A stretch of DNA of 44,016 bases from a virus: positions 1 to 44,016 of the IMG/VR virus record IMGVR_UViG_3300049927_000035, one strand, 5' to 3'. Shown here piece after piece: positions 9,766 through 42,762 of the stretch. Below the pieces are notes generated by a model, which saw only the letters and a program-made list of their open reading frames with translations, searched no databases and was not told the DNA's origin. The position numbers and the translations under genes were made by a program. How positions within the stretch are numbered: position 1 is the first letter of the stretch; every line of letters starts with the position of its first letter.

Positions 9766-9793
9766 TGTGATGTGTTTATAGGAACATGTTACA
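9766..9793. promoter_or_regulatory. Operator-like palindrome O3 in front of the recombination operon
   Basis: A 28-bp imperfect palindrome with left half TGTGATGTGTT and right part GAACATGTTACA. It matches the site at 15203-15230 at 23 of 28 positions and shares the core TGTnnTGTGTT-n5-GAACA with sites at 13419 and 13474. On the minus strand it contains TATAAA (9780-9775), a plausible -10 box for the operon starting at 9744; no good -35 is seen. A repressor bound here would cover that promoter. The repeat is seen directly; repressor binding is inferred. Confidence 0.75.
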
Positions 9794-12000: not shown

Positions 12001-12167
12001 TTCTGGTTCCTTTCGGCGTGCCGGCCATCACGGTTTGGGACGTGGCCTTTGAGTGTCTGATCGACCCAGTCGAGGGTGTCGCGGATCGTGTCGCGTTCCC
12101 CGCGGTGCCGTGGCGGGCGAACAAACCGGATCTGCGTCGGCCTGCTCATCGTCTGCATGGCGGTCAT
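11997..12167 (-). CDS. Hypothetical basic microprotein, 56 aa
   Basis: 56 residues from ATG 12167, with a good ribosome-binding site (AGGAG) 8 nt upstream and ATGA overlaps at both ends. Rich in Arg (RFVRPPRHRGERDTIRDTL), with a short amphipathic helix (DTLDWVDQTLKGH). Its charge would suit nucleic-acid binding, but no motif confirms this. Confidence 0.62.
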   Translation of the reverse strand: MTAMQTMSRPTQIRFVRPPRHRGERDTIRDTLDWVDQTLKGHVPNRDGRHAERNQK

Positions 12168-12385
12168 GTTCTTCTCCTGCGTCGTCGTGTTGGTTCTTGT
12201 GGTGGTGGTGCTTCGGAGGTGGTGAGAATTTGGGTGAGGTGGTCGTCTGTGAAGCGGATGGTGCGTGGCCCGAATTTCAGGTAGGGCCAGGTGCCTTTGC
12301 GGGCTGCGGCGCGGATTGTGGCGGGTGTGAGTTGGAGGATTTCGGAGAGCTGCGTGACCGTGTACGTGCGGGGGGCCTCGGTCAT
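12164..12385 (-). CDS. Excisionase-like / MerR-type HTH DNA-binding protein
   Basis: 73 residues. The pattern TVTQLSEILQLTPATIRAA followed by GTWPYLKFGPRTIRFTDDHL is the winged-helix layout of the excisionase/MerR-like HTH_17 family: the YTVTQLSEIL recognition unit, then an arginine-containing wing. The C-terminus is a poly-Arg tail. Small proteins of this family act as recombination directionality factors (Xis) or as regulators. As the only such gene here it is the best Xis candidate, although it lies about 3 kb from attP and in the early operon. Family firm, role inferred. Confidence 0.78.
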   Translation of the reverse strand: MTEAPRTYTVTQLSEILQLTPATIRAAARKGTWPYLKFGPRTIRFTDDHLTQILTTSEAPPPQEPTRRRRRRT

Positions 12386-12939: not shown

Positions 12940-13095
12940 CTATGCTGCGGTGACGGTCGTGACGGCACCATGGGTGGTGGTGGTGACGTGGGCGCCAGGC
13001 GAGTAGGCGGCTCTCTGGAGGCGTTCCAGCAGTTCGGGGTCGCGTGCGATGTCCTTGGTGAGGACGGAGAAGTTGCGTGGCTGGTTGGTGGTCAT
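12940..13095 (-). CDS. Hypothetical microprotein, 51 aa
   Basis: 51 residues from ATG 13095, with a strong AAGGAG site and an ATGA overlap with the Cro-like gene. The N-terminal half is helical and charged (LTKDIARDPELLERLQRAA). The C-terminal half is Thr/Val-rich (HVTTTTHGAVTTVTA). As second gene of the early transcript it should be made immediately after induction. No domain recognised. Confidence 0.6.
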   Translation of the reverse strand: MTTNQPRNFSVLTKDIARDPELLERLQRAAYSPGAHVTTTTHGAVTTVTAA

Positions 13096-13403
13096 TTGGT
13101 GCTCCTTGTGGGTGGGACTTCGCGGACGACTCGTTCGACCTTGTTGGTGAAGAGTGCGTCGTGGGGGAGTTTGAACAGTTCGGCGATGGCGAGGGCCACA
13201 TCGGTTTTCACCATGTTGCGGTGTCCTGAGCGGAGGTGCCCGATGGTGGGGCGGCTGATGCGGGTTTTGGATTTGTTGCGGATGAGGATGAGTTGTATCG
13301 CCTCGGTGAGGGTGGTGACGGTGTAGCCGTTCGCTTTCATGAGTTGGGCGAAGAGTTCGGCGTTGGTGAGCTTGATGTCGAGCCTTTCCGTGGTTTGGCG
13401 CAT
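13092..13403 (-). CDS. Cro-like HTH regulator, first gene of the early operon
   Basis: 103 residues transcribed divergently from the repressor gene. Residues 45-85 (KTRISRPTIGHLRSGHR, then KTDVALAIAELFKLPHDAL) fit an XRE/Cro-type helix-turn-helix in which the second unit helps choose the operator. A GGGAGA ribosome-binding site precedes ATG 13403. Operator-like sites at 13419-13446 and 13474-13499 lie directly in front of the gene. Position and fold make it the probable lytic-switch (Cro) protein or a delayed antirepressor. HTH identity is good; the Cro role is inferred from the arrangement. Confidence 0.76.
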   Translation of the reverse strand: MRQTTERLDIKLTNAELFAQLMKANGYTVTTLTEAIQLILIRNKSKTRISRPTIGHLRSGHRNMVKTDVALAIAELFKLPHDALFTNKVERVVREVPPTRSTK

Positions 13404-13418
13404 GACGTCTCCCTGGGG

Positions 13419-13446
13419 TGTTGTGTGTTTGGTCGAACATGGAACA
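13419..13446. promoter_or_regulatory. Operator-like site O4, cro-proximal
   Basis: 28 bp with the shared frame TGTnnTGTGTT-n5-GAACA-n4-ACA; here the first half reads TGTTGTGTGTT and the second GAACATGGAACA. It matches the 15203 site at 18 of 28 positions. It ends 16 bp before the cro start codon, so it would overlap the cro leader or promoter. Seen directly as a repeat; binding inferred. Confidence 0.65.
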
Positions 13447-13473: not shown

Positions 13474-13499
13474 TGTTATGTGTTGGTATGAACATTACA
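13474..13499. promoter_or_regulatory. Operator-like site O2 between cro and repressor
   Basis: 26 bp, first half TGTTATGTGTT and second half GAACATTACA, two bases shorter than the sites at 9766 and 15203. The sequence just right of it (TTACACACTTGTAG, 13495-13508) is repeated exactly at 9789-9802. TTGTAG at 13503 with TATTAA at 13527, 18 bp apart, is a weak candidate promoter for the repressor. Together with O4 and the weaker site at 13605 it gives a three-site control region like that of lambda OR. Confidence 0.7.
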
Positions 13500-13604
13500 C
13501 ACTTGTAGATGGGCTTGTCTACAGATTATTAAATCTATTCGTTGGATTTACGTAGAGAACGTTGGAAACACCGGAATTACACCGATGGGATTTGTAGATG
13601 AATC

Positions 13605-13633
13605 TGTAAAATGTTCTATTGACACACATGACA
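13605..13633. promoter_or_regulatory. Weaker operator-like site O5 in the repressor leader
   Basis: Read on the minus strand, 29 bp follow the operator frame with one mismatch in the TGTGTT block and a spacer of six instead of five: TGTCATGTGTG, then GAACATTTTACA after the spacer. It lies 20 bp before the preferred repressor start at 13654, so it could mediate autoregulation. It is less well matched than the other four sites and could be coincidental. Confidence 0.45.
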
Positions 13634-13653
13634 GCGCGAGGGAGATTGAAGCC

Positions 13654-14181
13654 GTGACAGACATACCGATCCAATGGGACGACCTGATGATCAGGAAAGG
13701 GTTCACATCCATCCGGCAACTAGCAAAAGCTGCAGACCTGAACCACACGATCGTCAACAGGGTCATCATGAAGGACGCCACAACAAGCGCCGAGAACATG
13801 CAGAAGATCGCATGGGCGCTCGACGTACCGGTGGAAGAGCTCTACGGGATCACCTCCGGGGTCGCAGCCAAGCCCCTCAGCATCCCGAAGGGCACCGAGA
13901 AACTGTCGGAACGCCAGAAGTCGGCGGTCCAGGAACTTATCCGCTCCATGGTCGAAGAGAAAGAAGTGACCAATGATGAATTTGTATACGAGAAGAACCC
14001 CGAAACGGCCCAACCTGGGCAGGAGAAGACGGGTAGCGTCACCCCCATTGGGGGCTACAAGTGGCGCACTCCGGCGCAGCAGAAGTTCGAGGACGCAGGG
14101 CGCCGGGTAGCCAAGATTAGGCGAGATTTTCCGCAGGATTCCCCTAGTTCTGACACAGATTCACCCCAAGTCGACGAGTAG
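13654..14181 (+). CDS. Phage immunity repressor (HTH, XRE-like)
   Basis: 175 residues. An XRE-type HTH covers about 10-65: MIRKGFTSIRQLAKAADLN, then HTIVNRVIMKDATTS, then MQKIAWALDVPVEELYG. A charged C-terminal half follows (SERQKSAVQELIRSMVEEK). I chose GTG 13654 because GGAG lies 9 nt before it and because a weak operator lies just upstream; ATG 13585 would add 23 residues and has no ribosome-binding site. It is the leftmost gene of the plus-strand immunity cluster, divergent from cro, followed by an ImmA-like peptidase. It is the most likely protein to bind the five palindromic sites. No autocleavage (LexA) domain is visible. Confidence 0.8.
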   Translation: MTDIPIQWDDLMIRKGFTSIRQLAKAADLNHTIVNRVIMKDATTSAENMQKIAWALDVPVEELYGITSGVAAKPLSIPKGTEKLSERQKSAVQELIRSMVEEKEVTNDEFVYEKNPETAQPGQEKTGSVTPIGGYKWRTPAQQKFEDAGRRVAKIRRDFPQDSPSSDTDSPQVDE

Positions 14182-14784: not shown

Positions 14785-15147
14785 GTGAGCGGGGAGACGC
14801 TGCCCGCCCTCATTCTCCGGGTCAAGGGTGAGAGGACGTTCCGTGAGTTGCGGGGGCAGGCTTTGAGGTTCGGTCATGACGTTCCGGAGTCCTCGTGGCA
14901 GCAGTGGGCGAAACCGGAGTTCAAGCGCACGAAGCTCCCGGACCCGGAAACCATCCGGGCGTTCGCCATCGGCCTCGGGGTCACGGAGACTGAGGTTCTG
15001 CTCGCCGCCGGGAGGTCCCTGGGGCTGGCTGTGGGGCTCGATAACGATGCGGACCTACTTCTCCCCGGCGCGGGTGTTTTGAGCGCCGCTGACAAGAACG
15101 TTCTGGCGTCCATGGCGGCGCTGCTGGTCTCGAAAATGGAGCGGTGA
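14785..15147 (+). CDS. HTH-like protein of the immunity cluster
   Basis: 120 residues from GTG 14785, 12 nt after the ImmA-like stop and with a purine-rich GAGGTGG ahead. The N-terminal part (RTFRELRGQALRFGHDVPES, then WQQWAKPEF, then PDPETIRAFAIGLGVTETEVL) has the spacing of an XRE-family HTH with a variant recognition helix. The C-terminal third (LGLAVGLDNDADLLLPG, then LSAADKNVLASMAALLV) recalls the end of phage and host transcriptional regulators. It is the last gene before attP. It may modulate the switch or integrase expression, but this is a guess. Confidence 0.7.
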   Translation: MSGETLPALILRVKGERTFRELRGQALRFGHDVPESSWQQWAKPEFKRTKLPDPETIRAFAIGLGVTETEVLLAAGRSLGLAVGLDNDADLLLPGAGVLSAADKNVLASMAALLVSKMER

Positions 15148-15174: not shown

Positions 15175-15389
15175 TTGTTGACAAAGTCAAGAATTAGGCG
15201 CTTGTAATGTGTTCCTAGGAACAGATTACAGCACTATAGTTCAGGAAGTCGGCTAAAATTCCGCGGATTCTAGGGGTCGGGAGGTGGGTTCGAGTCCCAC
15301 CTCGGGCACGAAAAGTCCCTTGAATTCTAGGGGATTTTGGACTGGTAACAGGTTAGTTGTTGACAAAGGTTCCGCTTATGTTGACAAGC
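15175..15389. other. attP region with tRNA 3'-end core and repeated integrase arm-type sites
   Basis: The core (about 15268-15310) contains a T-arm: stem GTGGG (15285-15289), loop TTCGAGT, stem CCCAC, then acceptor strand CTCGGGC and A, which would pair with a tRNA starting GCCCGAG. It is flanked by TTGTTGACAAAG at 15175-15186 and 15358-15369 and TGTTGACAAG at 15380-15389, good candidates for arm-type integrase sites. ATTCTAGGGG occurs at 15268-15277 and 15325-15334, and an imperfect palindrome around GAATTC follows the core (15311-15338). Operator O1 lies within. The integrase starts 16 bp after the last repeat. The exact crossover and the host tRNA cannot be read from one copy. Confidence 0.78.
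15203..15230. promoter_or_regulatory. Operator-like palindrome O1 inside attP
   Basis: A nearly perfect 28-bp palindrome: TGTAAT-G-TGTTCCT on the left and its complement AGGAACA-G-ATTACA on the right, with a single mismatched pair. The inner TGTTCCTAGGAACA is a perfect 14-bp palindrome. It is the most symmetric member of the shared operator set and lies 175 bp before the integrase. TATAGT at 15235 could be a -10 box of a plus-strand promoter that this site would block, but no convincing -35 is seen. Confidence 0.78.
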
Positions 15390-42428: not shown

Positions 42429-42688
42429 TGCAGGCCTCCATGGCGTGGGGAAAGGTTGCCCTGTCTTTAGTGCTTGCCGTAGACATGGGGCGGTAGATTC
42501 GGCATATTCGCCGCGCTTGGGGTCCCTGTTCTCATGGAAGGGCTCACACTTGGGCGGGACGTTTGATGGCCTGTTGTTCTCGCAGGTTTGCCGACTGCGC
42601 CCCGGCCTTCGCCGGGGAATGGTTCGCGCTATTACGGGCGCACCCGAGGCAGTTTCGCTGTTGCGAGACGTGGCTACCCAGCACGTCG
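42429..42688. other. Intergenic stretch between tRNA-Trp and zinc-protein gene
   Basis: 260 bp without a supportable gene. It holds a strong GC hairpin at 42600-42617 (CCCCGGC and GCCGGGG around CTTC), which is not followed by a T-run on either strand and may be an RNA-processing or partial termination site downstream of the tRNA. Frames that cross the tRNA are artefacts. No convincing promoter is seen. Confidence 0.5.
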
Positions 42689-42762
42689 CATGGAGGGCAG
42701 GACTCGAACCTGCAACCCACGGTTTTGGAGACCGCTGCTCTACCAATTTGAGCTACCTCCAC
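42689..42762 (-). tRNA. tRNA-Trp (anticodon CCA)
   Basis: 74 nt with all arms: acceptor GTGGAGG / CCTCCAT (G-U first pair), T8-A9, D stem GCTC/GAGC, anticodon arm GCGGT-CTCCAAA-ACCGT with CCA anticodon, variable loop GGGTT, T arm GCAGG-TTCGAGT-CCTGC and discriminator G. The 3' CCA is not encoded. It would supply Trp tRNA during late expression; portal, capsid and tail proteins are Trp-rich in places. It may also replace host tRNA cut by anticodon nucleases, in line with the phage RNA-repair genes. Confidence 0.95.

Follow-up and report, generated by a model that had tools for sequence, protein, structure and literature searches.

A phage attachment site at the tRNA-Leu(CAA) gene of Arthrobacter-group bacteria with a predicted immunity-repressor operator in its left arm

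For the segment at positions 15,175 to 15,389 of the viral record IMGVR_UViG_3300049927_000035 (44,016 nt in total, the whole of which is referred to as the window), the original prediction, made from the letters alone, described an undivided attP with a tRNA 3' end in its core, flanked by repeats in the layout of integrase arm sites and with an operator, O1, between left arm and core. Read rightward, the order is P0004, P0001, P0002, left arm, O1, core, hairpin, right arms and integrase (Table 1).

Table 1. Predicted features of the attachment site, the immunity module and related operators (window coordinates)
Feature	Position	Strand	Basis or remark
Excisionase	12164..12385	-	HTH_17, phrog_1840
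Cro-like HTH protein, first early gene	13092..13403	-	
XRE/Cro-C1 HTH protein P0004, ImmR-like repressor	13585..14181	+	
ImmA/IrrE-like metallopeptidase P0001	14269..14772	+	
HTH protein P0002, last gene of immunity operon	14785..15147	+	repressor family phrog_12831
Tyrosine integrase, 391 aa	15406..16581	+	Pfam Phage_integrase PF00589, E 1.1e-19; PHROG 1 (phrog_1); 91% identical in G001
Operator (predicted) TGTGATGTGTTTATAGGAACATGTTACA	9766..9793	.	precedes leftward genes below 9750
Early operator (predicted) TGTTGTGTGTTTGGTCGAACATGGAACA	13419..13446	.	operator consensus
Early operator (predicted) TGTTATGTGTTGGTATGAACATTACACA	13474..13501	.	overlaps -10 of putative leftward promoter
Left (P) arm, TTGTTGACAAAG and inverted partner	15175..15190	.	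palindrome TTGACAAAGTCAA at 15178-15190
O1, 28-bp dyad TGTAATGTGTTCCTAGGAACAGATTACA, predicted immunity-repressor/Cro operator in P arm	15203..15230	.	operator consensus
Element CCGCGGATTCTAGGGG left of core	15261..15276	+	partial repeat ATTCTAGGGG right of core, 15324-15333
attP common core, T-arm and acceptor 3' strand of tRNA-Leu(CAA)	15284..15309	+	26 nt identical to attB
Hairpin AAAGTCCCTTGAATTCTAGGGGATTTT	15312..15338	+	candidate terminator for rebuilt tRNA or attenuator before int
Right (P') arm site 1, TTGTTGACAAAG	15357..15368	+	repeat of left copy
Right (P') arm site 2, TGTTGACAAG	15379..15388	+	21 bp from site 1

The core and its host tRNA gene

The claim that the core carries a tRNA T-arm and acceptor strand was borne out: its 26 nt, GTGGGTTCGAGTCCCACCTCGGGCAC, occur once in the window and match the 3' end of Arthrobacter tRNA-Leu(CAA). 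This target was reached via relatives of the integrase rather than via an exact scan for the att sequence; scanning the genome collection with GGTGGGTTCGAGTCCCACCTCGGGCAC gave no matches, the base preceding the T-stem being specific to the phage. Likewise, a longer att pattern matched no viral contig, and no DNA-level relative of the window phage was found in the phage collection. When bacterial genomes were scanned with three aligned integrases, 40 integrase loci were obtained, all from Arthrobacter, Pseudarthrobacter or Paenarthrobacter, and in approximately 30 of the 40 the integrase start is preceded, within 100 bp, by a tRNA-Leu(CAA) gene. Nearly all of these ~30 tRNA genes end with GTGGGTTCGAGTCCCACCTCGGGCAC. 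The matching host gene that the original prediction proposed to look for was found in this way, with a 25-nt core pattern present in one copy per genome in 28 of the 29 genomes searched, and the identity between attP and attB breaks off sharply at either edge of the 26-nt core. The segment is almost certainly an attP, used by a temperate Arthrobacter-group phage to integrate at tRNA-Leu(CAA).

An attL assembled in silico from the host 5' half and the phage core was called as tRNA-Leu(CAA) by ARAGORN, unlike attP and attR, neither of which gave a tRNA call. Because of this difference the phage is predicted to rebuild the tRNA on integration. No tRNA gene of the phage's own would be needed for the rebuilding, in contrast to tRNA-dependent lysogeny (PMC10865867); the window's single tRNA gene, a tRNA-Trp (CCA) at 42688-42762 on the minus strand, is unrelated to the attachment site.

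Two further elements stand beside the core. The exact 16-mer CCGCGGATTCTAGGGG was found in 12 viral stretches, in most of which it directly adjoins the 3' fragment of a tRNA or tmRNA gene (tmRNA, a tRNA with CAT anticodon, and tRNA-Leu), and in 1 of 204 Arthrobacter-group genomes. It is sometimes a full palindrome, CCCCTAGAATCCGCGGATTCTAGGGG, followed by T's, and could represent either a terminator of stereotyped form or a site for a protein. Besides the window, it was seen next to an att core in L098, L099, L100, L101, L103, L105, L107, L108 and L050. The hairpin right of the core is weak (z -1.84) and absent from the terminator-scan list.

Arm-type sites and the undivided attP

All three TTGACAA repeats described by the original prediction are present, with the two right copies starting at 15357 and 15379 rather than at 15358 and 15380, an offset of at most one position. 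The copies of TTGTTGACAAAG at 15175-15186 and 15357-15368 are its sole matches at ≤2 mismatches in 44 kb, a count reached in 41 of 100 shuffles and so not unusual in itself; an exact 12-mer direct repeat within 258 bp of the local composition arose in 0.4% of simulations. Right arm pairs with a spacing of 21 bp were found 26-30 nt before the integrase start in ~29 bacterial loci, and likewise in the window and at a second integrase in G001 (IMG/VR record 2926383366_000001, 57 kb), which is the nearest relative of the window phage and is integrated. The repeat unit varies among the relatives (TGTTGACA, TGTGTACA, TGTTCCCA) and its two copies vary jointly, as co-evolution with the arm-binding domain of the integrase would predict. 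This joint variation backs the proposed layout, and the identification of the TTGTTGACAAAG repeats as putative integrase arm-type sites is supported.

The left arm of G001 has the same palindrome as the window, TTGACAAAGTCAA, with identity running through TTGTTGACAAAGTCAAGAATTAG. In two phages with other cores, the G019 prophage and L054, palindromes of a different sequence (TGTCATCACGGATGACA and GTTAGCAGAGATAAC, respectively) occupy the same place, and in all four phages the palindrome consists of arm-like units resembling the right arms of the phage in question. Palindromic left-arm candidates, e.g. AAAAGTGTGGACATTGTCCACACTTTT and GCTGACGGCGTCAGC, were also seen left of the core in other elements at tRNA-Leu(CAA) (L033, L039, L053 and L047), which suggests that integrases of this group may generally use an inverted pair as their left arm. 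TTGACA and TGTAAT at the left arm, separated by 19-21 nt, were also weighed as a rightward promoter, a reading rejected because the spacing is poor and the arrangement is not kept in G001.

The comparison with G001 bears directly on whether the site is undivided. At its left end, G001 carries the 91% identical integrase; its right end comprises the immunity module together with left arm, dyad and core. The window genes at 15.4 to 42 kb have their counterparts at 1 to 28.7 kb of G001, and those between the window's left end and 15.2 kb have theirs at 45 to 55.8 kb; the two gene orders are thus circular permutations of each other, broken at attP. The attR of G001 maps exactly to the site in the window, as the original prediction had proposed to check on att junctions, and with attL lying outside its contig, the integration of G001 at tRNA-Leu(CAA) is deduced solely from attR. 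Beyond the core, G001 carries another complete integrase (46% identical), which has arms of the same type (L005:3924-5166), i.e. the junction is one of tandem elements at tRNA-Leu(CAA) after attR. Such a junction, with repressor, O1, core, arms and int in sequence, mimics an undivided attP, and the layout alone is consequently no proof. That the window holds an undivided attP is instead supported because of its gene order and single-genome length. Phage genes lie on both sides of the site, as the original prediction stated, and the G001 order is opened at precisely this attP. A junction of two tandem prophages in the window, for which G001 provides an exact example, is extremely improbable, given that the window has the length of a single phage genome and carries one integrase, and that this integrase is 91% identical to that of the phage whose repressor module it shares.

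O1 as a member of an operator family

The dyad at O1 was not equalled in any of 200 shuffles. Its inner motif, GTGTTN6AACA, occurs five times in the window against 0.23 expected, and the extended consensus TGTNNNGTGTTN6AACAN4ACA picks out exactly four sites without mismatch, at 9766, 13419, 13474 and 15203. At ≤2 mismatches no fifth match appears in the window (shuffles: mean 0.03, maximum 2); the consensus was derived from its four sites, so that a comparison of 4 with 0.03 overstates the surprise. An independent check is provided by G001, where the consensus at ≤1 mismatch selects exactly three sites, two in the early gap (54048 and 54101) and one at attR (55832). The sites at 13419 and 13474 both lie in the gap between the cro and repressor genes, and the site at 9766 is identical to O1 at 23 of 28 positions. 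The same gap contains a putative leftward promoter for the early genes (TAGACA, 18 nt, TAATGT; 13521 to 13492, read directly), and the layout of early promoter and operator is readable also in G001, L054 and G019. O1 is very probably an operator of the repressor/Cro family, as judged from sequence, and the placement of an operator between left arm and core is backed by this family in the window and in the relatives. In the structure predicted for P0002 (mean pLDDT 75), the N-terminal domain is an HTH fold whose matches to HTH repressors, e.g. the TP901-1 CI N-terminal domain, are weak (E about 0.1 and above); this is consistent with a repressor role for P0002, which is a candidate binder of O1 alongside P0004 and the Cro-like protein.

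An intrinsic terminator at O1 was rejected, as no T run follows the dyad in any of the four phages. Elsewhere, a host intergenic dyad upstream of leuS, CGTTGCGTGTTTATGGAAACACGCAACA (L097:1501-1528 in genome G026), differs by one mismatch from the attP dyad of the relatives. No prophage was found near it, approximately 0.1 such matches are expected on a rough estimate, and it is regarded as a chance occurrence or a host site.

The position of the dyad was compared across the same four phages, the only ones that carry it. L054 and the G019 prophage have a core from tmRNA, their integrases and arm sequences are different ones, and their immunity genes are related to those of the window (52-63% identity for P0004 and 54-58% for P0002); in both, a dyad is kept in the interval from the P0002 stop codon to the core. 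The centres of left arm and dyad are 32.5 bp apart in the window, 31.5 in G001, 31.5 in G019 and 31.0 in L054, a comparison of four sequences of which two have an identical left arm. The distances from dyad-centre to T-loop-centre are 75.5, 86.5, 77.5 and 76.5 bp, respectively, the value for G001 exceeding the other three by about one helical turn. These values are suggestive of a dyad position kept relative to the left arm, and the constant spacing could reflect descent rather than function. The dyad of L054 is weak, with 37 of 200 shuffles as good, and neither it nor the early operator of this phage fits the consensus exactly. Because the tmRNA-using relatives, with other integrases and arms, keep the dyad at the same place, O1 is assigned to the immunity module. 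A search for further phages with a P0002 module and an adjoining att site found only the G019 prophage. In another genome (L060, G039) a P0002 homologue has no visible att site beside it and is directly followed by the dyad GTTCCGGCCGCGGAAC, as if a dyad after a P0002-type gene were part of the module.

Known systems and the possible working of O1

The locus shares with lambda-type arm-site attPs an adjacent tyrosine integrase, a rebuilt tRNA 3'-end core, the attR of a relative at the site and predicted arm-type sites on either side of the core. The lambda-type attPs of actinobacteriophages at tRNA 3' ends likewise combine a tyrosine integrase, a tRNA-rebuilding core and flanking arm sites, and mycobacteriophage Omega (attB-11) uses the same isoacceptor, tRNA-Leu-CAA, with a core of 44 bp as compared with 26 nt from the T-stem in the window (PMC10865867). 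Relative to these sites, the predicted operator inside the left arm sets the window apart, and except for this built-in element the attP is of an ordinary kind. In the KplE1 intS region a tRNA likewise stands beside int with arm sites before int (PMC2951348), and in ICEKp1 a hairpin lies between the tRNA end and int (PMC13023037); the available parts of these two sources describe no immunity-repressor operator in an att arm. No described precedent for an immunity-repressor operator inside an attP arm was found in the literature searched, which covers few subscription journals, and a position-conserved operator embedded in attP is to that extent a variant without described precedent.

In the integration-dependent immunity of BPs-type phages the repressor gene, attP and int are likewise adjacent and co-directional (PMC4557955, PMC9262239). 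These systems have no excisionase and no need of arm-type sites (PMC9262239). Assignment of the window to this class was rejected, since its attP lies outside the repressor ORF (P0002 stop at 15147, core start at 15284) and since it has an excisionase at 12164-12385 together with arm sites.

Overall, the data are probably best explained by an attP at tRNA-Leu(CAA) with O1 embedded in it. The tyrosine integrase would bind the inverted arm pair on the left and, to the right of the core, the two direct arm sites with their 21-bp spacing; strand exchange within the T-arm core would place the phage in tRNA-Leu(CAA), the tRNA being rebuilt at attL. O1, of the same kind as the early-promoter operator, would lie within the left arm, at a distance of about three helical turns from its palindrome, and remain on attR after integration. 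In the lysogen, repressor at O1 would most likely obstruct the left-arm complex and hold back excision until the repressor is lost, perhaps via the ImmA-like peptidase; the latter role is presumed by analogy with ICEBs1-type systems. That the main effect of O1 is on recombination is proposed tentatively, its likelihood being put at somewhat under even. The more specific version, in which repressor at the P-arm operator is a built-in recombination lock that holds attR shut in the lysogen and has been kept through exchange of integrase and target, is speculative and rather unlikely as it stands.

In the free phage, repressor bound at O1 may equally well block transcripts that run on from the immunity operon across attP towards int. 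O1 would then be a transcriptional roadblock before int in the unintegrated genome, reminiscent of the stoperators known in cluster A mycobacteriophages, with any effect on recombination incidental. P0004, the ImmA-like gene, P0002 and int are indeed co-directional, O1 directly follows the last immunity gene and no consensus promoter was found at O1. However, known stoperators are asymmetric and 13-14 bp long, and they occur in large number, uniformly oriented and spread genome-wide, whereas the window has only four symmetric 28-bp sites, for which reason the cluster A system itself was rejected, and a roadblock leaves the constant distance between O1 and the arm unexplained. Such a role is rather unlikely also. 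O1 might also be an auxiliary operator that tightens repression by looping to the early operators at a distance of 1.7 kb, its placement in attP being an accident of gene order. This reading would account for the same type of site at either end of the immunity module in both the window and G001, but not for an arm distance that stays constant despite a different integrase and different arms, and is clearly unlikely.

A third alternative, that the dyad is a recombination element (an excisionase or host-factor site) and resembles the early operators on account of a dual-use protein of the Cox/Apl type, is improbable. Excisionase sites lie between left arm and core, as O1 does, and phage 186 Apl, like P2 Cox, has its sites both at early promoters and in attP (PMC7498355), which corresponds to the binding predicted here. 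Conversely, Apl and Cox are themselves excisionases, and excisionase (RDF) sites are direct repeats 10-11 bp, or about one helical turn, apart (PMC7498355); O1 is an inverted repeat and was rejected as such a site, and the window has a separate HTH_17 excisionase gene. Furthermore, phages at tRNA-Leu(CAA) with other immunity modules have palindromes near the core, none of them of the O1 consensus.

If the recombination lock is true, loss of the repressor would open lytic transcription and excision at once. The site supplies an attP/attB pair for an integration vector in Arthrobacter-group bacteria and offers a clear test of direct repressor control of site-specific recombination, beyond control of xis and int transcription.
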